This document shows, piece by piece, positions 35,030-47,104 of a stretch of 48,054 bases of DNA (its first letter is position 1; the number at the start of each line of letters is the position of its first letter). The notes beneath the pieces are model-generated. The model saw only the letters and a program-made list of their open reading frames with translations, was not told the origin of the DNA and did not search any database. The position numbers and the translations under genes were made by a program. The DNA comes from Blastocatellia bacterium (GTDB taxonomy: Bacteria > Acidobacteriota > Blastocatellia > HR10 > J050), in assembly GCA_026985075.1 (NCBI GenBank), contig JALSQX010000042.1:1-48054 (forward strand), in the 5' to 3' direction.

Positions 35030-35605
35030 ATGAAGAAGAGGGGGAGCATCTCCAGGCAGGAATTGCATCACCTGTTCGCACGCGCTCACCACGGCGACCG
35101 CGAGGCGCGAGAAAAAATTTTTTCTCTTTTACGCGGGAGATTTCTGGCCGTGGCGAAATATAAATTAATGGAGGACGATGTTGAGGACGCTGTCCAGGAG
35201 GCGCTCATGGTTGTGCATGAGCATTTTTCAGAACTGGCGAACGTGGACCAATTAATGGCTTTCACATTTGGTGTCCTGCGCCATAAGATCGGCAACATTT
35301 ATCGAAGACGGGCGCGGCGGGAGCGCTATCGCGTGAGGCTGGAAGAGGCTCCCGAACCGACCTATTACATGGACGGAGCGTTAGACGCCGCTCAGTTGGA
35401 TCGACTCATGCTCCAGGCCATTCAAAGACTGGGGGCGAGGAAGCCTGAATGTCGAGCGATGCTGTTGGGCTTGCGCGAAGGGCTGAGCATTGATGATTTC
35501 TCTCGCCGATGGCGACTCTCCCGGTCCGCGCTCGACAAGCGCTTGGCTCGTTGTCGACGAGCCCTGCGACGCATGTTACGGGAGGAGTATGGCTTGCACC
35601 TATGA
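35030..35605 (+). CDS. ECF-type RNA polymerase sigma factor
   Basis: A 191-residue sigma factor. Region 2 spans residues 15-90 (LFARAHHGDREAREKIF, DVEDAVQEALMVV, FTFGVLRHKIGNIYRRR) and region 4 spans 125-185 (LGARKPECRAMLLGL, SIDDFSRRWRLSRSALDKRL), which recognise the -10 and -35. No obvious extra domain. It is followed 80 nt later by a zinc-finger anti-sigma with TPRs and then the CHAT gene, so it probably controls that cluster. Its start lacks a clear Shine-Dalgarno. The matching target promoter is not known from this window. Confidence 0.88.
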   Translation: MKKRGSISRQELHHLFARAHHGDREAREKIFSLLRGRFLAVAKYKLMEDDVEDAVQEALMVVHEHFSELANVDQLMAFTFGVLRHKIGNIYRRRARRERYRVRLEEAPEPTYYMDGALDAAQLDRLMLQAIQRLGARKPECRAMLLGLREGLSIDDFSRRWRLSRSALDKRLARCRRALRRMLREEYGLHL

Positions 35606-35684
35606 TCTCGATCAGGCGACCCATATTAACCTCATGCTGTGTGGCGGATTCCACGGTTGAGGGAGGGTCGAAGGAGCGAGGATA

Positions 35685-36530
35685 ATGAAATGTACAGATC
35701 CACGACTTCAGCGATTGATCACTCGATATGAGCTGGGCGCTCTGGAGCCATCCGAGCGAGAACAATTTGCCGCTCATCTGCTCCAGTGCGACGAGTGCTA
35801 TAACGAAGTCTACGCCATGGAGCCATTCATGGCGCCAATCCGTGAGCGCCGGGGAGCCATCCTACGCGGGGAGAAGACGGCCGATCCCACCATTCTCTCC
35901 ACGGTCATCGATGAGGGAGCGCAGCTACCCTTCTGGTTGCGAAAATCGGTGTTGGCGGCGGCATCACTGCTCGTGATGATCGGTGCAGGGGTCTTATATT
36001 TGTCTTCGACGAGATGGTCGCCCGTCCCGAGCGGAACCAGGCCTCCCGGATCTGAGTCACCTGCCTCCGAAGCGACCGATCACCTCCCATCGCCGTGGAA
36101 GGAGTTGGCCATTCCCAAGCCCGACTATATCCCAGCGAGCGGAGGAGCGGTGCTCCGCGACGACCGGTCGGCAATGGCCTTCGAGCGCGCGATGGCCGCC
36201 TATCAGGAGAACCGGTTCGCTGCGGCAGCAGAGCAACTGGAGGTCGTCAGTCGGCTCGATCCAGAGCATGCTGAGGCGCATTTTTATTGGGGCGTGTCGC
36301 TGTTGCTGGCGGGCCACAGCCGGGAAGCCTTGCCTGCTCTTAAACAGGCTGTTCAATTGAGTGCCGGTGCCGAGCGCGAGCGGGCGCGCTACTATCTGGC
36401 GCTGGCCTATCTGAAAACGGATCATCCCAAATCGGCGCTCGCCGAACTGGAGGTCATCATCAAAATGAATGGGCCATATCGAGCCGATGCCGAGCGGCTG
36501 AAGCGAGTTATCGTCGAGGTACCTCAATAA
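35685..36530 (+). CDS. Zinc-finger anti-sigma-like membrane protein with TPR domain
   Basis: A 281-residue predicted anti-sigma factor. Residues 8-45 carry an HxxxCxxC zinc-finger (HLLQCDECYNEVY) used to hold the ECF sigma. A single TM helix follows near residues 85-107 (KSVLAAASLLVMIGAGVLYL). The periplasmic part has three or so TPR-like repeats (FERAMAAYQENRFAAAAEQLE, AEAHFYWGVSLLLAGHSREA, RARYYLALAYLKTDHPKSAL). A signal received by the TPRs could release the sigma. It starts at ATG 35685 behind GGAGCGAGG, 80 nt after the sigma gene. Confidence 0.85.
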   Translation: MKCTDPRLQRLITRYELGALEPSEREQFAAHLLQCDECYNEVYAMEPFMAPIRERRGAILRGEKTADPTILSTVIDEGAQLPFWLRKSVLAAASLLVMIGAGVLYLSSTRWSPVPSGTRPPGSESPASEATDHLPSPWKELAIPKPDYIPASGGAVLRDDRSAMAFERAMAAYQENRFAAAAEQLEVVSRLDPEHAEAHFYWGVSLLLAGHSREALPALKQAVQLSAGAERERARYYLALAYLKTDHPKSALAELEVIIKMNGPYRADAERLKRVIVEVPQ

Positions 36531-36550
36531 AGCCACAGAGGTCCAGAGTC

Positions 36551-36952
36551 ATGAATGACATGAACAGACTGACCGGACAGATGATCGGCTGTGCTATTGA
36601 GGTGTACCGTCACCCGGGACCCGGACTTCTCGATGTGATCTGTGAGGCGGCATTATGTATCGAATGGAAAGCGGCCGGCTTGACATACAAACGATAGCCT
36701 GCTTTCCCGTCTTTACATAAGGGAAGAACGGTTGAGCCGTATTGCCTCGATTTGGTCGTGGAGGACGCCGCTATGGTGGAACTCAACCGCGTTGAGCGAT
36801 TCAATCCCATCTTCGAAGCCCACGTTTTTATCTCTCTGAAAGTCACGGGAGCAAAAACCGGGTTGTTGAGCAACGTTGACTCGCGATTCCTGCAAGATGG
36901 AATCAAGAGATTTATTCTTTCTCTCTATAGTGGCGGGAGATATTGGCCATGA
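36551..36952 (+). pseudogene. Decayed GxxExxY (PD-(D/E)XK-like) gene
   Basis: The frame from ATG 36551 reads LTGQMIGCAIEVYRHPGPG, the start of GxxExxY proteins, then stops at TAG 36695. In the same frame it resumes as YCLDLVVEDAAMVELN, EAHVFISLKVTGAKTGLLSN and FLQDGIKRFILS, the rest of that family. Besides the stop, the name motif is changed (GLLDVIC) and the core VELK lysine is Asn. The final TGA (36950-36952) overlaps the ATG of the CHAT gene. Intact members are about 120-130 residues long. It is thus an inactive remnant. Confidence 0.8.
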
Positions 36953-39909
36953 GATGGAGCTGGAAGCTGTTCTTCTTTGGCGTATTCCTGATCATATGGG
37001 CGGCGCCGGGATATGACCGATTGCCACCAGAACGTATTATTCATCTTGACGAGCGCCGTGAAGGCACCTTTCGCCCCAGAGATCCGATCAGAAGAGCCCC
37101 GCCGCGCGGACCCGCACATCGCTGGGCATTCAACGGCCAGGCGGGACAACAGATCACGATTATTGCCGAGTCCTATGAGTTCGATACCTATTTGTTGCTC
37201 ATCGATCCCCGAGGAGAGCAGATCGCCTGGAGCGATGATAGTGATGGATTGTTCAATGCGCGGATTCGCGCGACGCTCCCGGCGGCAGGACGCTACAGGG
37301 TGATCGTCTGCGGCGTCAATGCCGATCAATACGGTACGTATTGGCTCTCGTTGGAGGAAGGCGATCGCGAAGCCGATTGGAGCGAGGAAGCCGTCTCCAC
37401 TTATTATCGGCGAGGGATCGAGTGGGCCGAACGCCGAAAGAGTCGACGCGCCCTGAGTTGGGTGAATCTGGCTGTGGGGAGATACTTCCGCGAGCGTCGA
37501 CAGTGGGAACGCGCCGAGCAGCATTATGCGCAGAGCCTGACCGCCGCTCGAGAGGCCGATTTCCTGTACGGCCAATGGGCCGTCGCGCTGGAACGGGGCA
37601 CGTTGTTGACCCAGCGCATGCGGTATGATCAGGCAGTTGGTGAGCTTCAACGGGCCCTGGAGTTGGGCAGAAAGCTGCGGGCCGCTGATCAGGCTGAAGC
37701 CCTCGTCTCAGTCCAACTTGGCGATCTTTACTACTACATGGACAGGGAGGAGCTCGCAGAGATTTATTATCAAAACATCGCTGAGCTCGTCGAGCAGACC
37801 GGGTTTCCGTCTACCTCATCGGCCCGACTCTACATCTCATTGTTTAACTTTGTTCGTCTCCAAGATAAGGAGAGGGCCATTAAATATGCGCGAAAGGCTT
37901 ATGCCTTACGCGGAGGAGTGGATCCACTATTCAAATTCCAGGCAATCTTCACTCTGGCTGATGCTTATTCTCTGTCGGGCAGGTCCGAAGAGGGACTCAG
38001 ACTAGCGACTGAAGCTCGTCACCTCGCCCATCGTCTCGGCTGCACAGGGGAGGAAACCTTCATGCTCATTTGGATGAGCATGGAATATTACCGCTTGAAT
38101 CGTATCGAACAAATGATCTCTAGGGCTCGTGAGGCAGTTGAGTTAACGGGTCCAGACAATGAAGACCCTGAGCCTCGGCGAGTTGCTTTACAACTCCAGG
38201 CCGATGGGGAGATGCTGAGAGGAAACTACGAGGGGGCTCTTCAATTGTGCTTAGAAGCCCTTCGGACAACAGAAAGGGCTTGGGTGAGGGAGCCTGTCGA
38301 GGAATTGCAGTGGAACTATCTCGCTCAATCAAAAGCAATCTGTACTCAGATCATTATGAACCTGTACGCCTTGAATCTCCGTCATCCGAACCGCGAGTAC
38401 GCCCGTCAGGCTTTTGATTTCGCCGAGCGTAGTCGTAGTCGTTCATTATTACAACAATTGAGAATCGAGCAGGAATATCCGGACGCCTCGAAGAAGGCTT
38501 CCTGGCTCGATCGAGATCAGCGACTTTTAGAAAAGATCTCAGCTCTCGAGCGAGAGCTGGTGCTTTTGCGCGCCGGAGGTCAAGCGGATCACGCCACCCT
38601 CGATCGCCTGGAAGAGCGGCGGGCCCGTCTTGTCGGAGAGCGCATGCGGCTTCAAGCTGAGATCCGGCAGACTATGACCAATACCTATCACGCCGCTCAA
38701 TTGTCTCCTCTCACGGCCGAGCAGGTGCAAAAAGAGTTTCTCGCCGCTCATCCGAACACGGCCATTCTCTTTTATCAACTGGGCATTCAAGAGAGCTTCC
38801 TCATCGTCCTCACGCGCGAGAACGCAGGACTTTTCAAGCTGCCCGATTGGACGACTATTGGCGAAACCGTGGCCGAATGGCGCGCCTACATTCGCCTGCA
38901 ATTAAAGCCGGCCGGACGAACGGCGACGGCTCTTCGCGACTATGCCCGCATCGCCCATCGACTCTATGAAATGCTCGTCAGACCGGCCGCTCGGATCATT
39001 CGAAGTCGTGATCTCATCATCGTGCCGGATCGGGCACTGTATCAACTCGCTTTCGAAGGATTAATCGTTTCCCAACCAGAGCGCATTGAGGATCTCGGTC
39101 AACTCCATTATCTGGTCGAGGATCACTCCGTTACCTATGCGCCCTCAATCTCCGCTCTTGCAGAGATTGAACGACGACAACAGCGCAGAGTCGCGAAGGC
39201 GACAAAGAAGTTACTTCTACTGGGCGATGCTGTATTTAATGAACGTGATCCGCGGATGGTCCAAAAAAGACCGGTCAAACCTGACCAAGATGAGACACGA
39301 ACTATGGCCTATGGTGCCCGATTGCGTGCTGGGCTTCACCGGCTACCAGCCACTCGCAATGAGATACTCAGTATCGCCCGGCTCGCTGAAAGTTACCAAT
39401 GGAGTCCAGATGTATGGCTTGGTTTTGAAGCGAGCGAGCGGAATCTCAAGACGAAGGATTTATCTGTATATGGCTTGGTACATTTGGCGACCCACGCTAT
39501 CGCTGATCCAGTAGTTGGTGACTTTTCCGGTATCATTCTCTCGGTGAGCGAAGGTCATTCTGATGATGACGGGTTGCTTACGGCGGCTGAGGTTTCTCAC
39601 CTTCGATTGGGGGCAGATCTCGTCGTATTGAGTGGATGCGCAACTGGCGATGGTCAAGTGACCAAAGCTGAAGGCGTCGTCGGACTGAGTCGCGCCTTTC
39701 TCATTGCCGGAGCCCGCCGAGTCTGTGCCTCTCTCTGGAAGGTCGAAGATGATGCAACACGACAATTAATGATCTTGTTGTATCGTCATCTCCTCACGAG
39801 AGGACAATCACTCGCTCATGCCCTGCAGCAAGCAAAAATCAAATTCCTCCGTCGAGGCCGCCTGCCTTTCTTCTGGGCGCCATTTGTCCTTATCGGAGCC
39901 CCTGATTGA
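36949..39909 (+). CDS. PPC-TPR-CHAT domain protein
   Basis: A 986-residue protein. A signal peptide or N-anchor (MRWSWKLFFFGVFLIIWA) precedes a PPC-like beta domain (about 45-140: WAFNGQAGQQITIIAESYEF). A long TPR array covers about 145-520. A coiled coil follows, then the CHAT domain (about 580-985), a caspase-like protease fold. Its dyad candidates are H849 in HLATHAIADP and C897 in VVLSGCATGDG. CHAT proteins may act as proteases in stress or death pathways. ATG 36949 follows GCGGGAGA. It is downstream of the ECF sigma/anti-sigma pair, likely under their control. The substrate is unknown. Confidence 0.9.
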   Translation: MRWSWKLFFFGVFLIIWAAPGYDRLPPERIIHLDERREGTFRPRDPIRRAPPRGPAHRWAFNGQAGQQITIIAESYEFDTYLLLIDPRGEQIAWSDDSDGLFNARIRATLPAAGRYRVIVCGVNADQYGTYWLSLEEGDREADWSEEAVSTYYRRGIEWAERRKSRRALSWVNLAVGRYFRERRQWERAEQHYAQSLTAAREADFLYGQWAVALERGTLLTQRMRYDQAVGELQRALELGRKLRAADQAEALVSVQLGDLYYYMDREELAEIYYQNIAELVEQTGFPSTSSARLYISLFNFVRLQDKERAIKYARKAYALRGGVDPLFKFQAIFTLADAYSLSGRSEEGLRLATEARHLAHRLGCTGEETFMLIWMSMEYYRLNRIEQMISRAREAVELTGPDNEDPEPRRVALQLQADGEMLRGNYEGALQLCLEALRTTERAWVREPVEELQWNYLAQSKAICTQIIMNLYALNLRHPNREYARQAFDFAERSRSRSLLQQLRIEQEYPDASKKASWLDRDQRLLEKISALERELVLLRAGGQADHATLDRLEERRARLVGERMRLQAEIRQTMTNTYHAAQLSPLTAEQVQKEFLAAHPNTAILFYQLGIQESFLIVLTRENAGLFKLPDWTTIGETVAEWRAYIRLQLKPAGRTATALRDYARIAHRLYEMLVRPAARIIRSRDLIIVPDRALYQLAFEGLIVSQPERIEDLGQLHYLVEDHSVTYAPSISALAEIERRQQRRVAKATKKLLLLGDAVFNERDPRMVQKRPVKPDQDETRTMAYGARLRAGLHRLPATRNEILSIARLAESYQWSPDVWLGFEASERNLKTKDLSVYGLVHLATHAIADPVVGDFSGIILSVSEGHSDDDGLLTAAEVSHLRLGADLVVLSGCATGDGQVTKAEGVVGLSRAFLIAGARRVCASLWKVEDDATRQLMILLYRHLLTRGQSLAHALQQAKIKFLRRGRLPFFWAPFVLIGAPD

Positions 39910-39961: not shown

Positions 39962-40707
39962 CACCGGTTTTAAGACGACATGGCTGGCATGCTGCTATTG
40001 ACAGCAGGTCAATCCTCTCTCACAACACCAGGTTCGTGAAGGGGGGAGTTCATTTTGTCCAGACATCTGCATCATTGCCGGTGGCTCCGGATCGGGCTCA
40101 GATTTTCCCGCCGGGTTCATCAGAAGCATGCTCAAAAACAAGATCGCCATCATCCATCTGATCATCAACATCGCATTCCCTCCTCTGATCGAAAATGATG
40201 GATTCTGTGGGCGCTGGAGATAGATTTTCCCCAGCAGCGCGCTGGCCCGATAACCGCTCTGTGGCAGCTCGGTCGCGCTCTCTCATCCTGGCCTGAGCGC
40301 TCAGGTCTCTTCGGTTTTCGGTTCGAACCGGCTGAGGCCCTCAGCCTCTTCCCACTTTCATAATTTCGCCAGGCGTGGTTTTCTCCCCCTGACGGAGAAA
40401 AAATCAGACTCAGCGACCAGCTCAGCGGACTTCTTGACGATCTCTCGCCACCGAGACACAGAGGCGCAGCGCCCGGAACGTTTCAGCCACCAGGAAGCAC
40501 AAGCATCACAAAGGATCACTCATGGCGCTCGGGAACCACACCGAAGGGATGAGCAGGGCTCTTTTCGAGGGAGTCTCCTGCGGCGGTTCGCGACGATGAG
40601 GGAGAAGGCGAGCCATCGTCCATGGTCCATCGTTTCTTTAAAAAAATTTCATCGGGGCGGGAGATTTGGCCGTCTGGTGAAATATATATAGATGGGGAGG
40701 GAAAGTG
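39962..40707. other. Gene-free, palindrome-rich interval
   Basis: I support no gene here. Notable structures include CCTGAGCGCTCAGG (40292-40305), CGGTTCGAACCG (40319-40330), GGCTGAGG-C-CCTCAGCC (40330-40346) and TTTTCTCC/GGAGAAAA (40379-40401). A CACAGAGG-type token (40445-40467) resembles one at 36533. An AT-rich stretch (40680-40692) then precedes GGGGAGGGAA and the AraC-type gene. Confidence 0.55.
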
Positions 40708-41220
40708 ATGATGGACAATCCCAAGCCAGACATCTCTCTCACCGTCGAGGGACTCACGCCGGGTGACGGTCGGTGGTGGCATCCGGCACTCCGACGAGCG
40801 TTGCGCCTGGTCATGCGCGATCTAGCCGAGCCGGTCTCGTTCGCGGCCGTGCTGGCCGTGGCCGGTGTGAGCAAGTCGTACTTTTGCGCGCTCGCGCAGC
40901 AGACCTTCGGCATGAGCTTCATGCGTCTGGTCAGACGACTGCGGGTGAGACGGGCGGCCGAGCTGCTGACCACGACGTCTCAATCCATCACCGAGATCGG
41001 TCATGCCGTGGGTTTTGGTGATCTCCGGCAGTTCGAGCGCGCCTTTCATCAGGTCTACGGCTGCGCTCCGACAGCCTATCGGCGCCGAATTCGAGAAGAA
41101 TGGCAGCAGGAATTTCTACACAGTTTAAGCGAGGCGAAAAAATCGGACTGGATGACGAAAAGACCGGACTCTTCACCGAGCCAATGTCAGCGAAACGTCA
41201 TATCATCCAGCATGAAATGA
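40708..41220 (+). CDS. AraC-family HTH regulator
   Basis: A 170-residue transcription factor with only the DNA-binding part of AraC proteins: residues 25-125 contain HPALRRALRLVMRDLAEPVS, the first HTH (VLAVAGVSKSYFCALAQQTF) and the second HTH (SITEIGHAVGFGDLRQFERAF), ending in YGCAPTAYRRR. No sugar- or ligand-binding N-domain is present, so a ligand is not expected. A charged tail follows. ATG 40708 has GGAGG 7 nt upstream. Its stop overlaps ATG 41217 (ATGA), so it is coupled to the membrane-protein gene and probably governs this operon. Confidence 0.85.
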   Translation: MMDNPKPDISLTVEGLTPGDGRWWHPALRRALRLVMRDLAEPVSFAAVLAVAGVSKSYFCALAQQTFGMSFMRLVRRLRVRRAAELLTTTSQSITEIGHAVGFGDLRQFERAFHQVYGCAPTAYRRRIREEWQQEFLHSLSEAKKSDWMTKRPDSSPSQCQRNVISSSMK

Positions 41221-41228
41221 GGATGGTT

Positions 41229-43697
41229 ATGAACGGGATGAATGACTCCTTGATCCTTCACCGATCGGTGCGCAATGCACTAGGGGCGCTGAGCCTTTTG
41301 AGCGCCTTCGGGTTCATCACCAATAATCTTGGACCGCTCGCGCCGGAGTTAAGCGCATTGCTCGCGCTCTTATCGTTAACCTTTTTTGTTTCGCTGCATT
41401 TTCCCAAGCGAGCGGCCAGCTTCAAGGGATGTTCGAAGACGTTGCTTTTGCTCGGAGTTGGTGCGTTAACCGCGGCTTTCATACTCTGGATGATCGGTGG
41501 CCAGATCGAGCGCTGTTTGGCTGTCGTTTTCCTTCTTCTCTCGTTGAGCTGGATCAGCAAAGCTTTCGGCGATGCACAGGCCACACTCTCTGTTTCTCTG
41601 TTAGCCGCTTTGCTCATCAGCTTGTATGTGATTCTCTATCAGTACGTCCCTCCTTTGTGGTTCGGTGTTCAGGCTACGTCGCGACTCTTTTCTCAAAGCA
41701 TTTCTCATTTGGTTGGAAAGGAGATGCAGTTCGGAGCGACCGCTTCAGGCTTCCACCTGTTAATTTTCTTCCTTTTATACACGCTCAGCTTCTTTTGGCT
41801 GGTGACGCAACGGTCTGGGAAGGCTCTGCTCGGCATCGTTGGGCTTGGGATCTTTGTTCATGCTCTCTATCTCATTATTCATGATCCGATCTTCGTCCCA
41901 CTTCTGAAGCTGTTCGAGAACCCATATCATGTAGGTCACAGTCACTATAGGCCCTATACCATCACCGCTCTCAATACTCCGATCTTCTTTCTGGGCTTAC
42001 TTTGGATTTTGCTCTTCTTGCTTGTGCGAACATGGTCAGTGCGGGAGCCTCAGGAGCCCGCTCATCGCTCAGTCCATATGATCATAGGTGCTGGCTTGGT
42101 GGGCCTGGGGATGATAGTCCTGACGTATTGTCCCATAGAAACAGAGACGGGCGGCAAAGTACTTCTCTATGACAGGGGAGTCGTGAACTGGGATCGTCCA
42201 GTGTTTGGCAAGTATGGGGAGCGCAGCGGTGGTATGTTTGGCATGTTGCCGGAATTTTTGCAAGCAGCTGGATTTATTGTGAAACAGAGCCCGATTATCT
42301 CAGACGCCATTCTGAATGACTGTCGGGTGCTAGTCATCATCAATCTCCAACACCCCTTCGCTCCCGAGGAACATGCGGCCATCTGGCGATTTGTCAGGAA
42401 GGGGGGGGCGCTCCTGGCGCTTGGAGATCATACAGGTCTTGGGGGGATTCGTGAGCCACTTAACGAACTGCTTCGGCCCGCCGGAATTGAGTTCCGTTTC
42501 GACAGCGCGCATTACATCGGGGACTGGGATCACGCCTTCGAGATTCTCCCTCATCCAACGACTCGAAGAGTGCTGGCCGATCGTGGACTGGGCATATCTG
42601 TGGGTGCTTCGCTGAAGATCTCCGCATCGGTGACCCCCGTCGTCATTGGCAAATATGGGTTCTCAGACCTGGGCAATGCTAACAATACGCGCCGGGCCTT
42701 CTTGGGCGACCGAACGTACAATCCGGGCGAAGCGTTAGGTGATCTTGTCCTGGTAGCGGCCACCCGATATGGGCGGGGCAAGGTTATGGTCTTTGGGGAC
42801 ACCTCGCCATTTCAGAACGGCACGCTCGTTAAAACTCACCGATTTGTGCGAAATGTCTTTGATTGGTTGGCGACTCGATCGGACGCAGATCCATTTCCAT
42901 CTCGTATCTTCATCGGCCTCTCCTCTCTTTTGGCGGGTAGCGGGCTGCTTATGATCACTGCGCCGATCTCTATGGGCATTTCTTCGCTGGTTGGAGCCTT
43001 ACTTTCGGGAGTCATCGTAACCGGAATCCTTCTTCCGTTCGGAGATGAAGAAAAGCTATTGCAAGGAAAGATGGCTTATATCGACCTCTCTCATCTGGAG
43101 CGAGTGAACCTCGCCTATTGGGATGACGACGCTTTCTTAGGGTTATCCTACAACTTGATGCGTAACGGATTCTTGCCGCTAGAGATGGATCGCTTCTCTG
43201 AAAAGGCCCTTCGGAGCGGCGAGGTCTTCATTGTGCTGGCGCCAACCAAACCATTCTCTCGTTCTGAGGTCCGCGCTCTCACGCAATATGTCCGTGAAGG
43301 AGGAACGGTTCTTTGGTGTACTGGGTGGGAGGAAGCGCGAGGGTCACAGCGAGTGCTCCAAGCATTTGGGTTCGAGTTGGAGGATATCCCACTCGGGCCG
43401 GTCAGACCTGAGAGCAATACGGCTGGCCTGCATTTTTATAAGGCCTGGCCCATCCGCCTGAACGATCAGCAACGAGCTGACGTCCTCTGTTCTTTCAAAG
43501 AGCCGGCCTACCCCCTCATTGTGGAACGGGTATATGGCTCTGGCCGGTTCATTCTCGTGGGGGATGCTGGCTTTTTGCTTAACGCCAATCTGGAATCACT
43601 GAAGAGTTATCGTCCAGAAAACATTGCGTTCTTGAAAGAGCTGCTTCGAGCCGAATCCGGTGGCGAGCGGGTGGCTCTGAAAACGAAGGAGGAGTGA
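41229..43697 (+). CDS. Large membrane protein with two GATase1-like domains (paralogue 1)
   Basis: An 822-residue protein of unknown function. Residues 1-310 contain about eight TM helices. A soluble alpha/beta domain follows (about 315-545: KVLLYDRGVVNWDRP, VRKGGALLALGDHTGLGG, YGRGKVMVFGDTSPF), two TM helices (LAGSGLLMITAPISMGI region), and a second similar domain to the end (YVREGGTVLWCTGW, GSGRFILVGDAGF). These resemble GldG/DUF4350 GATase1-like domains, which lack glutaminase residues. Start chosen at ATG 41229 behind GAGGA; 41217 and 41223 are alternatives. It shares architecture with the next gene, 1 nt away. Confidence 0.8.
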   Translation: MNGMNDSLILHRSVRNALGALSLLSAFGFITNNLGPLAPELSALLALLSLTFFVSLHFPKRAASFKGCSKTLLLLGVGALTAAFILWMIGGQIERCLAVVFLLLSLSWISKAFGDAQATLSVSLLAALLISLYVILYQYVPPLWFGVQATSRLFSQSISHLVGKEMQFGATASGFHLLIFFLLYTLSFFWLVTQRSGKALLGIVGLGIFVHALYLIIHDPIFVPLLKLFENPYHVGHSHYRPYTITALNTPIFFLGLLWILLFLLVRTWSVREPQEPAHRSVHMIIGAGLVGLGMIVLTYCPIETETGGKVLLYDRGVVNWDRPVFGKYGERSGGMFGMLPEFLQAAGFIVKQSPIISDAILNDCRVLVIINLQHPFAPEEHAAIWRFVRKGGALLALGDHTGLGGIREPLNELLRPAGIEFRFDSAHYIGDWDHAFEILPHPTTRRVLADRGLGISVGASLKISASVTPVVIGKYGFSDLGNANNTRRAFLGDRTYNPGEALGDLVLVAATRYGRGKVMVFGDTSPFQNGTLVKTHRFVRNVFDWLATRSDADPFPSRIFIGLSSLLAGSGLLMITAPISMGISSLVGALLSGVIVTGILLPFGDEEKLLQGKMAYIDLSHLERVNLAYWDDDAFLGLSYNLMRNGFLPLEMDRFSEKALRSGEVFIVLAPTKPFSRSEVRALTQYVREGGTVLWCTGWEEARGSQRVLQAFGFELEDIPLGPVRPESNTAGLHFYKAWPIRLNDQQRADVLCSFKEPAYPLIVERVYGSGRFILVGDAGFLLNANLESLKSYRPENIAFLKELLRAESGGERVALKTKEE

Positions 43698-43698
43698 G

Positions 43699-46350
43699 AT
43701 GAAAGCGTTCTGGGTGGGGCTTGTTTTCCTCTCATTAATGTGGGTCTTTATTCTGCCCATATATGAATCCCCTCATAAGATCTGGGTGAGCCTTCTGTTC
43801 TTGGGCGTGGCAGCTAACAGCATAGCTTTTGGGCAGATGAAGGTTCAGCCGATCTCGCCGAGCATGGTTCTACTTTGGGGACCGCTCGGGCTCTTTGTAT
43901 TCGTACTTCCCTGGCCTTACACGCTGGGAGCGATTCTGTTCATGCTCGCACTGGTGAGCAGTCTGATGGCGGGCGAGAACCGAAAGATCCAAGCCGTGGT
44001 TTCAGGGCTCGGATTCACCGGATTGGTGCTTCTGCTTCAGGCCATCATCTGGCCGGTCTATGTTCATGTGGCTGCTCGATGGCATACGGTTCCAATCCTG
44101 AATCCAGTTTTGAGTTTCATCCTCCACTTGCTGGGTGCCCCTGTGAGCTTCGATGAGGATGGCTTTTTCATTCAAACAGCCGAGGGGGTCAAGGAGCTTT
44201 TTACGACCTGGGAGAGTCTGGGCACTTATGTTTTCCTGAATGTGGTACTTGGTAGCACGGGGCTTCTTCTCTTTTCCAGACGGATCCTGGAATCTCTCGG
44301 ACGGTTGCTTCTAGTCCTCACGGGCTACGCTATTGCGCGATACGTATTCCTGTTGCTCGCTTTTGCGAGCTTTGAGACGACAGATATCTTTTGGCGACGT
44401 CCCTGGTTGATCCTGAGCTTTCTGCCCCTCCCGGTCATTTTAATGAAGTTTGTACCGTTAACTCGGACGCGATCGGTAGAAGTACCAACTTTCTGGTTGA
44501 ACTGGCGGACAGCCACTTTCGGCATTCTGATGGGGATGGCTGCCCTGGTACTGAGTGGTGTGTTCTTGTTCCAGGATCCGGGCGTGAAAAAACAAGGGCG
44601 GGTACTCTTTGATGAAGGTCATAGCGACTGGGAATGGATGGATCGGCCCTTTGATACCGAGTGGTATGGCGAGCGGTCCAGCTACAATTACTACTGTCTG
44701 GGACAGTTCCTCAAGCACTATTATGTTGTGGATATCAGAAAGGATCCGCTCTCGGCAGAGCTACTGAAAAATTATGATGTGCTGGTTTTAAAAACGCCCA
44801 CGACCCCATATACACCAGAGGAAGTTGAAGCCGTCGTTCAGTTTGTGAAGGCGGGAGGTGGACTCCTGCTCATTGGTGATCATACCAATGTCTTTGGCAT
44901 GAGTACGTATTTGAATCGGATCGCGCGTCACTTTGGCTTCCGCTTCAAATACGATGCCACCTACGACTTAGCGACCGGCAGTCTATCGTTCTACGAGCCG
45001 CCGCGTCGTGGGCGCCATCCGGTGCTCGGCTATCTGCCGTTTCACATGTTCGCAACTTCTTGTTCGCTCCAAGCGCCGTTGCTTTCGGAGAGCGTCATTG
45101 TAGGATATGGACTGAAGGCGCTCAAAGCCGATTACTCACAGCGCAGTTTCTTTCCCAAGGAGGCTCACAGCGCCTCGGCCATGGAATTTGGGTTATTCTT
45201 ACAGACGGCGGCTTCTAAGCAAGGCTTGGGTCGCGTGCTGTTTTATACTGATAGTACATGCTTCTCCAATTTCTACATGTTCATGCCCGGCAAGCCCGAG
45301 TTGGTCTTAGGAGCGATCGAATGGCTCAATCGCCGGAATAAATATCACACGCTCAACCTTTGGTTTCTCTTGCTGAGTCTGACCACTCCGGTCATGGCTT
45401 CCTATCTGGCGCGACGGCTCCCTCGGGAACAACTCCTGCTGTGGGGGCTCTCGGGCGTCTTGATCGGGGGGGCGATTGGCATCGCTACCTTCGATGCCTT
45501 GAACCGGCGCACCTATCGGCCACCGGAGCCCCGTACACCTTACCCGAGGCTCATTTTTGAGGCGGAGCATTCGACCTATTATCTTCCAGTCAAGCACCTC
45601 CAAGGCAAACACAATACCGATATGCACACATTTTACGTGTGGACGCAACGGCTAGGTTTGATACCAGAGGTGAGCTACAGCTTCAAAAAGGCACTGGAGA
45701 GTGGTGACGTGCTGGTACTCATTAATCCCATCAAGTCGTTCACACCAGAGGAAGTCGAAGCTTTCATCAACTACGTGGAGCGCGGGGGGAAAGTCCTGTT
45801 GCTCGATGACCCGCGCAATCATACCAGCTCGACCAGTTACCAACTGCTGAACCCTTTCGATCTTCGCATCTCATTTTATGAGATTCCGAAAGGCACTCTG
45901 GTGAATGCAGCGGGCGAAGTGATCTGGCAAGGCGAGCACTTTGGAGAAGTTCAAGGCGGCGAGCCCCTCCTCTTTGTGCAACCACTTGAGAAGCGTTCAC
46001 AGGCGAAATCGCGCAGAGAGAGTGCGCCGCCGAAGCGTCCTGTGCTCGCTCTTGCCGGAAGGGGTCGAGGGCTGTTAGCGGTATTGGGCTGCTCATATAT
46101 GTTCACGGGGCAAGTCATGGGTTCGACCTCGACAGTGCCCGATGAGCGATTGCGCAAGATTTACGAACTGGAATACTGGATTTTCAGAAATATACTGAAG
46201 CTCGGTCAGAAGGCCGTGCGATCAGTGCACACGCCTTTGAACACGCTCTCTGAGGGCCGATCCTGTCCCATAGCCGAGGGCGCGCTGGTTCTTAGACCGA
46301 TCGCGAATCGGTCTGGTACCCTGGCGAGAGAATCAGCACGACGAATTTGA
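43699..46350 (+). CDS. Large membrane protein with two GATase1-like domains (paralogue 2)
   Basis: An 883-residue paralogue of the preceding protein. About eight TM helices (1-295) lead to a first soluble domain (RVLFDEGHSDWEWMDRP, VKAGGGLLLIGDHTNVFG), then two TM helices (NLWFLLLSLTTPVMASYL and LLLWGLSGVLIGGAIG), then a second domain (RLIFEAEHSTYYLP, YVERGGKVLLLDDPRNH, GRGLLAVLGCSYMF). Both paralogues share the GDHTxxxG turn. The N-terminal part carries GAPVSFDEDGFFIQTAEG then TWESLGTYVF and YAIARYVFLL, faintly like exosortases without their cysteine. It starts 1 nt after its partner. The C-tail is basic and may be disordered. Confidence 0.8.
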   Translation: MKAFWVGLVFLSLMWVFILPIYESPHKIWVSLLFLGVAANSIAFGQMKVQPISPSMVLLWGPLGLFVFVLPWPYTLGAILFMLALVSSLMAGENRKIQAVVSGLGFTGLVLLLQAIIWPVYVHVAARWHTVPILNPVLSFILHLLGAPVSFDEDGFFIQTAEGVKELFTTWESLGTYVFLNVVLGSTGLLLFSRRILESLGRLLLVLTGYAIARYVFLLLAFASFETTDIFWRRPWLILSFLPLPVILMKFVPLTRTRSVEVPTFWLNWRTATFGILMGMAALVLSGVFLFQDPGVKKQGRVLFDEGHSDWEWMDRPFDTEWYGERSSYNYYCLGQFLKHYYVVDIRKDPLSAELLKNYDVLVLKTPTTPYTPEEVEAVVQFVKAGGGLLLIGDHTNVFGMSTYLNRIARHFGFRFKYDATYDLATGSLSFYEPPRRGRHPVLGYLPFHMFATSCSLQAPLLSESVIVGYGLKALKADYSQRSFFPKEAHSASAMEFGLFLQTAASKQGLGRVLFYTDSTCFSNFYMFMPGKPELVLGAIEWLNRRNKYHTLNLWFLLLSLTTPVMASYLARRLPREQLLLWGLSGVLIGGAIGIATFDALNRRTYRPPEPRTPYPRLIFEAEHSTYYLPVKHLQGKHNTDMHTFYVWTQRLGLIPEVSYSFKKALESGDVLVLINPIKSFTPEEVEAFINYVERGGKVLLLDDPRNHTSSTSYQLLNPFDLRISFYEIPKGTLVNAAGEVIWQGEHFGEVQGGEPLLFVQPLEKRSQAKSRRESAPPKRPVLALAGRGRGLLAVLGCSYMFTGQVMGSTSTVPDERLRKIYELEYWIFRNILKLGQKAVRSVHTPLNTLSEGRSCPIAEGALVLRPIANRSGTLARESARRI

Positions 46351-46420
46351 GGATATTGCAAGTGCATATCGAACGAATCGTTCTGCCAAACGCCCGAACA
46401 TCGGGTAAGGAGGTGCCGGC

Positions 46421-46510
46421 TTGAAACTCGAATTCCACCACATCCCGTTGTTGATTACTGGGCTGCTCGTCGGCAGCCTGACTCACGCTTTAAAGGAGGT
46501 GTTTCTATGA
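46421..46510 (+). CDS. 29-residue membrane peptide, coupled to the Cys-rich gene
   Basis: A very short reading frame starts at TTG 46421 behind AAGGAGGTG (46407-46415) and ends at TGA 46508-46510, which overlaps ATG 46507 of the next gene. The peptide KLEFHHIPLLITGLLVGSL plus THALKEVFL is mostly one hydrophobic helix. Perfect Shine-Dalgarno and the ATGA overlap are the evidence. It may be a real micropeptide or merely a coupling device that helps translate the Cys-rich protein. Confidence 0.5.
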   Translation: MKLEFHHIPLLITGLLVGSLTHALKEVFL

Positions 46511-46941
46511 AACGCAGATTCTATGACTGGCCATTATTGACCATTGCCTTGCTCATTAGCAGTTTGGTCTATGCTTCACCACAGCGTGTGAAGGAAACAT
46601 CTGAAGTGGCACCGGTTTTCAGGATGTCACTTCAGGACGCCATCCTTCGACTGGAAAGCAATGGGCAGCGTCAGTGGCATCGACGTCTATTACCGAACTC
46701 TGGTGTTCCGGCTGCGGCGGCGAAGACATTCGAGTTCATCACCTGTGGGACAGCCTGCGATGGTGAGCCGGGGCCGACCGAAGAAGTGGGCACCTGCCAA
46801 GGTCAGGTCACTTGCTTGAGCACGTGCGCGAATACTTGCCAATCCACATGCTCGAACACCTGTGACCAGTTTAGCTGTTTTGGCAGTACCTGTGACGCGG
46901 GTACCTGTGCGATGACTTGTTCTGGATTTCGTTGTCCGTGA
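46507..46941 (+). CDS. Exported Cys-rich protein with Thr-Cys repeats
   Basis: A 144-residue protein with a Sec signal peptide (KRRFYDWPLLTIALLISSL, cut near VYASPQ), a linker of about 50 residues, and a C-terminal region dense in cysteine. Thirteen Cys lie at 80, 84, 97, 103, 107, 111, 115, 119, 124, 129, 134, 138 and 143. From 103 on the spacing is mostly four or five residues, and Thr precedes nearly every Cys. No family is known to me. Metal binding, disulfide folding or enzyme-made cross-links are all possible. TAAAGGAGGTG precedes ATG 46507. It closes the operon begun at 40708. Confidence 0.75.
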   Translation: MKRRFYDWPLLTIALLISSLVYASPQRVKETSEVAPVFRMSLQDAILRLESNGQRQWHRRLLPNSGVPAAAAKTFEFITCGTACDGEPGPTEEVGTCQGQVTCLSTCANTCQSTCSNTCDQFSCFGSTCDAGTCAMTCSGFRCP

Positions 46942-47006
46942 CCGAGGCGCATAGTAACCTTGACATGTGATATTTCAGACCCAATGCAGACATACAACTT
47001 TCCTTC

Positions 47007-47081
47007 TGTGGGTCACTGGGTCACCGGCTTCTGGAAATCAGCGAGAGGATGATACATTTATATAGCCCCTGGTGACCCACA
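47007..47081. promoter_or_regulatory. Inverted repeat upstream of the VWFA gene
   Basis: TGTGGGTCAC (47007-47016) is repeated inverted as GTGACCCACA (47072-47081), enclosing an AT-rich stretch (ATTTATATAG) that could hold a -10. The arms may bind a regulator of the gene at 47105 or end the preceding transcript. Confidence 0.4.
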
Positions 47082-47104
47082 AAGGGACAAAACGGGGATG
47101 GTAT

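Follow-up and report, generated by a model that had tools for sequence, protein, structure and literature searches.

The window analysed here is a stretch of 48,054 nucleotides from a Blastocatellia bacterium of the phylum Acidobacteriota (GenBank assembly GCA_026985075.1, contig JALSQX010000042.1). It carries a compact group of genes built around two large membrane proteins, A and B, and a small exported protein rich in cysteine (Table 1). An earlier interpretation of the window, the sequence-only reading, had proposed a new operon running from an AraC-type regulator to the Cys-rich gene. The close packing that it described is present in the sequence at every junction: ATGA overlaps at 41217-41220 and 46507-46510, a 1-nt gap at 43698 and a 70-nt gap at 46351-46420. 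No promoter-like excess was found between the genes of the group, and terminator-like matches lie upstream of or within genes, with 0 at the junctions. A single transcript for the predicted operon is plausible.

Table 1. Features of the A/B locus in the window.
Feature	Coordinates	Strand	Evidence
Short AraC-family protein (helix-turn-helix only)	40705..41220	+	PF12833, E 1e-22
Protein A: about 8 transmembrane (TM) helices, GIFT domain 1 (GDHT...FGDTS motifs), 2 TM, GIFT domain 2	41217..43697	+	
Protein B: about 8 TM with a predicted beta hairpin before TTWESLG, GIFT domain 1 (GDHTN...TDST motifs), 1-2 TM, GIFT domain 2 (IFT52-like)	43699..46350	+	
29-aa open reading frame (ORF) with TTG start ('micropeptide'), copy of the ribosome-binding site and signal peptide of the next gene	46421..46510	+	
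Exported Cys-rich protein, 144 aa: signal peptide, tag motif, Thr-Cys-rich core	46507..46941	+	
Conserved post-signal motif APVFRMSLQDAILRLE (family: SPLFxxSLxxAIxxLE)	46609..46656	+	
Cys-rich core, 13 Cys	46744..46938	+	
Secreted VWFA-family protein (TIGR03436), cut off by the contig edge	47105..48054	+	

The composition of the group had to be revised. The 'micropeptide' does not stand as a separate component: because its reading frame duplicates the ribosome-binding site and signal peptide of the Cys-rich gene that follows, it is more likely the remnant of a tandem duplication (protein alignment score against the Cys-rich signal peptide 50, shuffled maximum 31 in 1000; DNA alignment of the two regions, 20 vs 15). 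The AraC-type gene, previously counted as a member, is not conserved; it is absent from the other A/B loci that were read, with a sigma-54 activator at locus L020, and it is a local regulator outside the conserved system. The end of the group had been set at 46941, which overlooked the TIGR03436 VWFA gene that starts 3' of it and continues past the contig. Between the Cys-rich and VWFA genes lies a long inverted repeat (47005-47085, about CTGTGGGTCACTGGG ... CCTGGTGACCCACA) with a strong stem and an overall folding z of only -1.4. Upstream, on the same strand, positions 35030-39909 encode an ECF-like sigma factor, an anti-sigma/TPR protein and a 988-aa TPR-CHAT protein.

That A and B are paralogous membrane proteins with a doubled GATase1-like layout, as the sequence-only reading held, agrees with both domain alignments and topology. 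In hhalign comparisons the first GIFT (GATase1-like) domains of A and B matched each other with Prob 99.9 and E 8e-32, and the second with Prob 99.2; domains 1 and 2 inside the same protein are also homologous (Prob 98.7 for A, 98.4 for B). Hydropathy gives 8+2 TM helices for A and 8+1 for B, and the structure model of B has 2 helices between its GIFT domains. Both proteins matched PF09822, PF23355 and PF14258 (ABC_transp_aux, IFT52_GIFT and DUF4350) above cut-off, and Pfam, PDB profiles (IFT52, E 1e-6) and fold comparison concur in placing their extracytoplasmic domains in the GIFT / GATase1-like superfamily. GIFT domain 2 of B gave Z 20.1 with IFT52, 15.6 with S1P and about 14.8 with OST48/Wbp1, and Foldseek and VIA fold searches agree with the assignment, GH42 also being among the matches. 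The model of B is moderate (predicted local distance difference test, pLDDT, 64.8), with GIFT domain 1 and the membrane part only partly confident, and that of A (pLDDT 54) was too poor for use. The membrane part of B found no match in the PDB, a result that carries no weight because the model is only partly confident there. GIFT domain 1 is the likely ligand or active site of both proteins, since its motifs are kept in nearly all homologues (GDHT and FGDTS in A; G-D-H-T-N and D-S-T in B), GDHT being common to the two.

The A/B family is rare, patchy and widespread. B is present in 3/396 sampled genomes of the window's phylum, and the genome of the window holds a second, diverged A/B pair (L019); a same-genus genome searched for B lacked it, and a plasmid collection searched with B gave 0 matches. 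A scan of public genomes yielded 11 further loci labelled Latescibacterota, Eisenbacteria, Nitrospira, Bacteroidota, Pseudomonadota, Wallbacteria and unassigned metagenome-assembled genomes (MAGs). In the phylum of the L030 genome, 6/80 genomes had matches at E 1e-20; for one of these, G446, the match is the A gene, and the B gene begins after it and is cut at the contig end. Homologues of A were found at L019, L020, L027, L028, L030, L032, L091, L178, L180 and L181. Cut ends or scaffold gaps affect many of the loci, which lie on MAG contigs (L029, L031, L035, L179). Of the weak GIFT-only matches in genomes of the window's phylum (L006-L017), those with neighbourhoods that were read (L021-L023) proved to be other secreted GIFT-like proteins and not A/B pairs. 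In two genomes of one genus, exported repeat proteins (KPYGKSIMDGWEWDGKI...; L021:6889-7323, L022:4208-4657) adjoin large secreted GIFT-like proteins with ADHN motifs.

The exported Cys-dense product described earlier after A/B has a signal peptide (by reading), and its last 66 residues contain 13 Cys. The proposed search for co-occurrence of the three genes across genomes was positive: the trio recurs in distant lineages. Where flanks are readable, an exported Cys-rich gene lies beside A/B nearly always. Homologues of the pair regularly found without such a neighbour would have spoken against the proposal; in the core family they were not seen, and A/B loci of this kind were limited to contigs that are truncated, an assembly that is split and the Wallbacteria homologues, which are very distant (26% identity). 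Cys-rich ORFs, taken as those with at least 9 Cys and at least 5% Cys, occur within 1 kb of A/B at 11/19 loci, both the criterion and the distance having been set after most loci had been seen; L030 adds another, its ORF being masked by the overlap filter. Elsewhere among the 209 ORFs of the 19 loci we found three genuine Cys-rich ORFs, namely motif-bearing ones in L019 and L034 and one ferredoxin-like. No NCBIfam family matched the Cys-rich cargo. At L027:12994-15252 the export has 752 aa and 92 Cys, with TCDGSxTCDP-type repeats and a type IX secretion system (T9SS) sorting domain at its end. The export upstream of A/B at L180:2956-4209 has IPTIRTAGIILLTGLLFGAGIMILLRRRRQAS at its end, which by eye resembles an IPTL-CTERM sorting tail but has no NCBIfam match.

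The Cys-rich exports share a previously unreported motif, SPLFxxSLxxAIxxLE, directly after the signal peptide. A 26-residue profile of it gave strong matches (E 5e-10 to 2e-7) in 9/14 A/B genomes, 11 matches in all; most of these sequences were themselves in the profile, and the informative part is the near absence of matches elsewhere. Thus, among 297 genomes of the window's phylum, strong matches occurred only in the two intact A/B carriers; in the third carrier, G279, the profile matched, at E 0.037, an ORF that has a signal peptide and runs off the contig. With leave-one-out profiles, the Cys-rich (or truncated) neighbour came first among all reading frames in 10/12 loci, including the window protein (rank 1/1088, E 0.033) and L027, where the top frame is the 92-Cys protein. 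The motif was confirmed in 2/3 loci fetched after its definition: at L178 (E 8.8e-6; a second Cys-rich reading frame precedes this gene) and L180 (E 0.0022) the Cys-rich gene lies directly upstream of A, and at L181 the Cys-rich gene upstream of A has a degraded motif. In G120, a second motif-bearing Cys-rich frame (L134:6046-6432, contig G120:C20) has no obvious start or signal peptide and appears to be damaged or recombined; a VWFA gene comes next here too.

In the window's phylum a VWFA gene comes next after the motif-bearing Cys-rich gene in 4/4 cases (window, L019, L020, G120:C20), and the two carrier genomes hold only 28 and 10 TIGR03436 matches in 5.2 and 2.6 Mb. The 28 matches would by themselves suggest Acidobacteriota as the phylum of the window. 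The window protein (P0011) belongs to the TIGR03436 acidobact_VWFA family, with 113 bits against a cut-off of 81.25 despite its truncation. Judging by this gene order, the secreted VWFA protein is a probable further partner in this phylum; a vWA neighbour of A/B was found only at this phylum's loci. Elsewhere, TolC, HlyD and MacB-type genes lie downstream in L033, L091 and L094 (OEP and HlyD matches in L091 and L094, the remainder by reading), and an XrtA/PEP-CTERM exopolysaccharide cluster (L028:1-5939) is directly upstream of the A/B and Cys-rich genes of L028. The VWFA and exporter genes, the T9SS domain of L027 and the L028 cluster fit a protein bound for the cell surface or the outside. 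Downstream of B, L178 (10963-14009) and L179 (2292-5314) carry the same two opposite-strand genes in two genomes, by reading an exported protein with a C-terminal TM helix and a Cys-containing DUF362-like protein, and a radical-SAM-like gene, also by reading, lies on the opposite strand at L180. Since the ABC, VWFA and efflux genes nearby differ between loci, A, B and the Cys-rich gene might themselves be chance neighbours; the recurrence of the trio in distant lineages and the motif tests contradict this, and we regard it as scarcely credible.

Our preferred interpretation, to which we assign a probability of roughly 58%, is that an A/B complex recognises the motif-bearing Cys-rich exports and matures, anchors or assembles them on the outer side of the inner membrane. 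A and B would form an inner-membrane complex dedicated to Sec-exported Cys-rich proteins bearing SPLFxxSLxxAIxxLE. After Sec export, the extracytoplasmic GIFT domains of A/B would recognise the tag beside the signal peptide, the complex would then mature, anchor or assemble the Cys-rich protein, and the latter would proceed from the inner membrane to the cell surface or outside. The sequences show the gene linkage in distant lineages, the common motif and the arrangement of domains; from these we infer that A and B form a complex, that it binds the motif directly, what it does to the export and where the export ends up. The sequence-only reading had likewise suggested a two-component membrane machine with a secreted Cys-rich substrate. 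The recurring trio and the shared N-terminal motif support this central idea, but substrate, as opposed to ligand or partner, is a role that we infer.

Several observations weigh against this interpretation. Gene linkage is no proof that A/B act on the Cys-rich protein, and the GIFT domains of IFT52, OST48 and S1P are non-catalytic parts, the catalytic site of A/B being putative. The motif of the window protein is weak (A for S, V for L), the leave-one-out test failed at L019 and L032, and no strong motif match was found in G400, G401, G404 and G405, which have contig ends, a split assembly or members of the distant Wallbacteria subfamily. In addition, an exported TKCPPVT-repeat protein (L094:9177-9659) beside a diverged, frame-broken A/B pair is without the SPLF motif.

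The Cys-rich cores are variable and not alignable beyond the cysteines. In the window, the 13 Cys are mostly spaced 4-5 and Thr precedes 77% of them; across the cores, 166/254 Cys (65%) follow a Thr, against 15.5% Thr. A conserved, leader-like motif followed by a highly variable core with such TC enrichment, together with the MacAB/TolC-type exporters downstream in L033, L091 and L094, would be in line with chemistry of the kind seen in ribosomally synthesized and post-translationally modified peptides (RiPPs), in which the cores are precursors crosslinked or otherwise modified by A/B outside the cytoplasm. Core size argues in the other direction, reaching 90 Cys and 580 residues in L027, as does the absence of TC in L034 and its near absence in L019. 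Furthermore, no known RiPP-modifying enzyme (radical SAM, MNIO, YcaO, LanM) was recognised near the window genes in a reading made mostly by eye, with profile scans of part of the upstream genes. We consider this explanation quite unlikely.

Sugar binding has been proposed for GIFT domains (PMC7226087), which resemble beta-galactosidase and ThuA domains. A/B could then be a sensor or receptor that binds the secreted Cys-rich protein or a glycan as ligand, the Cys-rich protein being a signal, toxin or metal binder; the proposed sugar binding is in line with a glycan ligand, and a regulator gene adjoins A/B in the window and in L020. However, the type of regulator varies between loci, and the motif lies beside the signal peptide, the usual place of processing or targeting tags, and not in the core, so that a receptor function appears improbable.

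The membrane domains raise the question of exosortases, from which (or from archaeosortases) the 8-TM parts of A/B might descend, still processing or anchoring exports with a different nucleophile. In its model and alignment, B has a helix, an extracytoplasmic beta hairpin and a further helix carrying a conserved Arg, arranged as in exosortases. It is placed in register with exosortase by hhalign, and the result improved on addition of homologues (P 0.03, then 0.0027, Prob 11%). The IPTL-CTERM-like tail in L180 and the XrtA/PEP-CTERM polysaccharide cluster adjoining L028 point the same way. Against this, exosortase families of Pfam and NCBIfam gave 0 matches in 8 B members at E 10, the window genome has no match to PF09721 or TIGR04178, and the catalytic CSG is missing, its place being taken by TTWESLG in B and by ASG in A. 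With a wider exosortase profile P was only 0.04-0.13, block-permuted decoys reaching 21 vs 18.1, and the window export ends in ...TCSGFRCP with no C-terminal sorting signal. Overall, the hhalign comparison of the B membrane domain with exosortase stays non-significant (Prob 0.4-11%, P 0.0027-0.13), its score rising with homologues. The PDB searches returned no exosortase of solved structure. Exosortase membership was thus not established by family hidden Markov models (HMMs), by profile-profile comparison with two exosortase alignments or by reversed and block-permuted controls, and such a descent is unlikely.

A bolder reading, which we put forward only tentatively as a possibility on the doubtful side, is an undescribed post-translational machine in which twin GIFT-domain membrane proteins would recognise the post-signal tag and covalently modify, anchor or polymerise Thr-Cys-repeat exports by chemistry that is neither that of sortase nor that of exosortase. 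An A/B system with dedicated cargo would be a new machine-plus-cargo pair beside the few systems devoted to protein sorting and maturation (sortase, exosortase, rhombosortase, T9SS). The 16-residue tag can itself be searched for and locates cargo in genomes whose Cys-rich cores vary too much for alignment. With up to 90 cysteines in repeats, mostly Thr-Cys, the cargo proteins may form a class from poorly known phyla with a structural, adhesive or metal-binding role, or one of peptide products.

The sequence-only reading knew of no described system with this gene set, and we likewise found none in the open literature that was searched. GldG, ABC_transp_aux and DUF4350 proteins share extracytoplasmic GIFT (GATase1-like) domains with A/B, but A/B do not belong to the GldFG gliding/T9SS ABC transporters (NCBIfam GldG, 26.2 bits vs a cut-off of 389.85), and by reading neither an ABC permease nor an ATPase adjoins A/B in the window. 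IFT52, OST48/Wbp1 and S1P resemble B in the fold of its second GIFT domain; they are eukaryotic, have other architectures and show no link to Cys-rich exports. Sec export, richness in Cys and encoding in short operons are features that the A/B cargo has in common with bufferins (PMC12452194) and other Sec-exported Cys-rich RiPPs; their MNIO (DUF692) partner was not recognised here by reading, their motif differs, and the cores of the present family are much longer and variable. The predicted archaeal secretion system arCOG01314 combines GIFT-domain proteins that have a signal peptide and one C-terminal TM helix, a MoxR-type AAA ATPase partner and a secreted vWA protein in operons (PMC5898192). 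Extracytoplasmic GIFT domains and a secreted vWA protein are also found at the A/B loci of the window's phylum, whereas A/B have about 10 TM helices and two GIFT domains each; no AAA ATPase was seen beside them by reading, and both topology and ATPase set A/B apart from arCOG01314. Exosortases and archaeosortases, like A/B, are polytopic membrane proteins paired with exports that share a short sorting tag, and the hairpin-then-helix layout of B is similar to theirs. Unlike A/B, they have the catalytic CSG, the family HMM match and a C-terminal tag, whereas the tag of the A/B cargo lies beside the N-terminal signal peptide.

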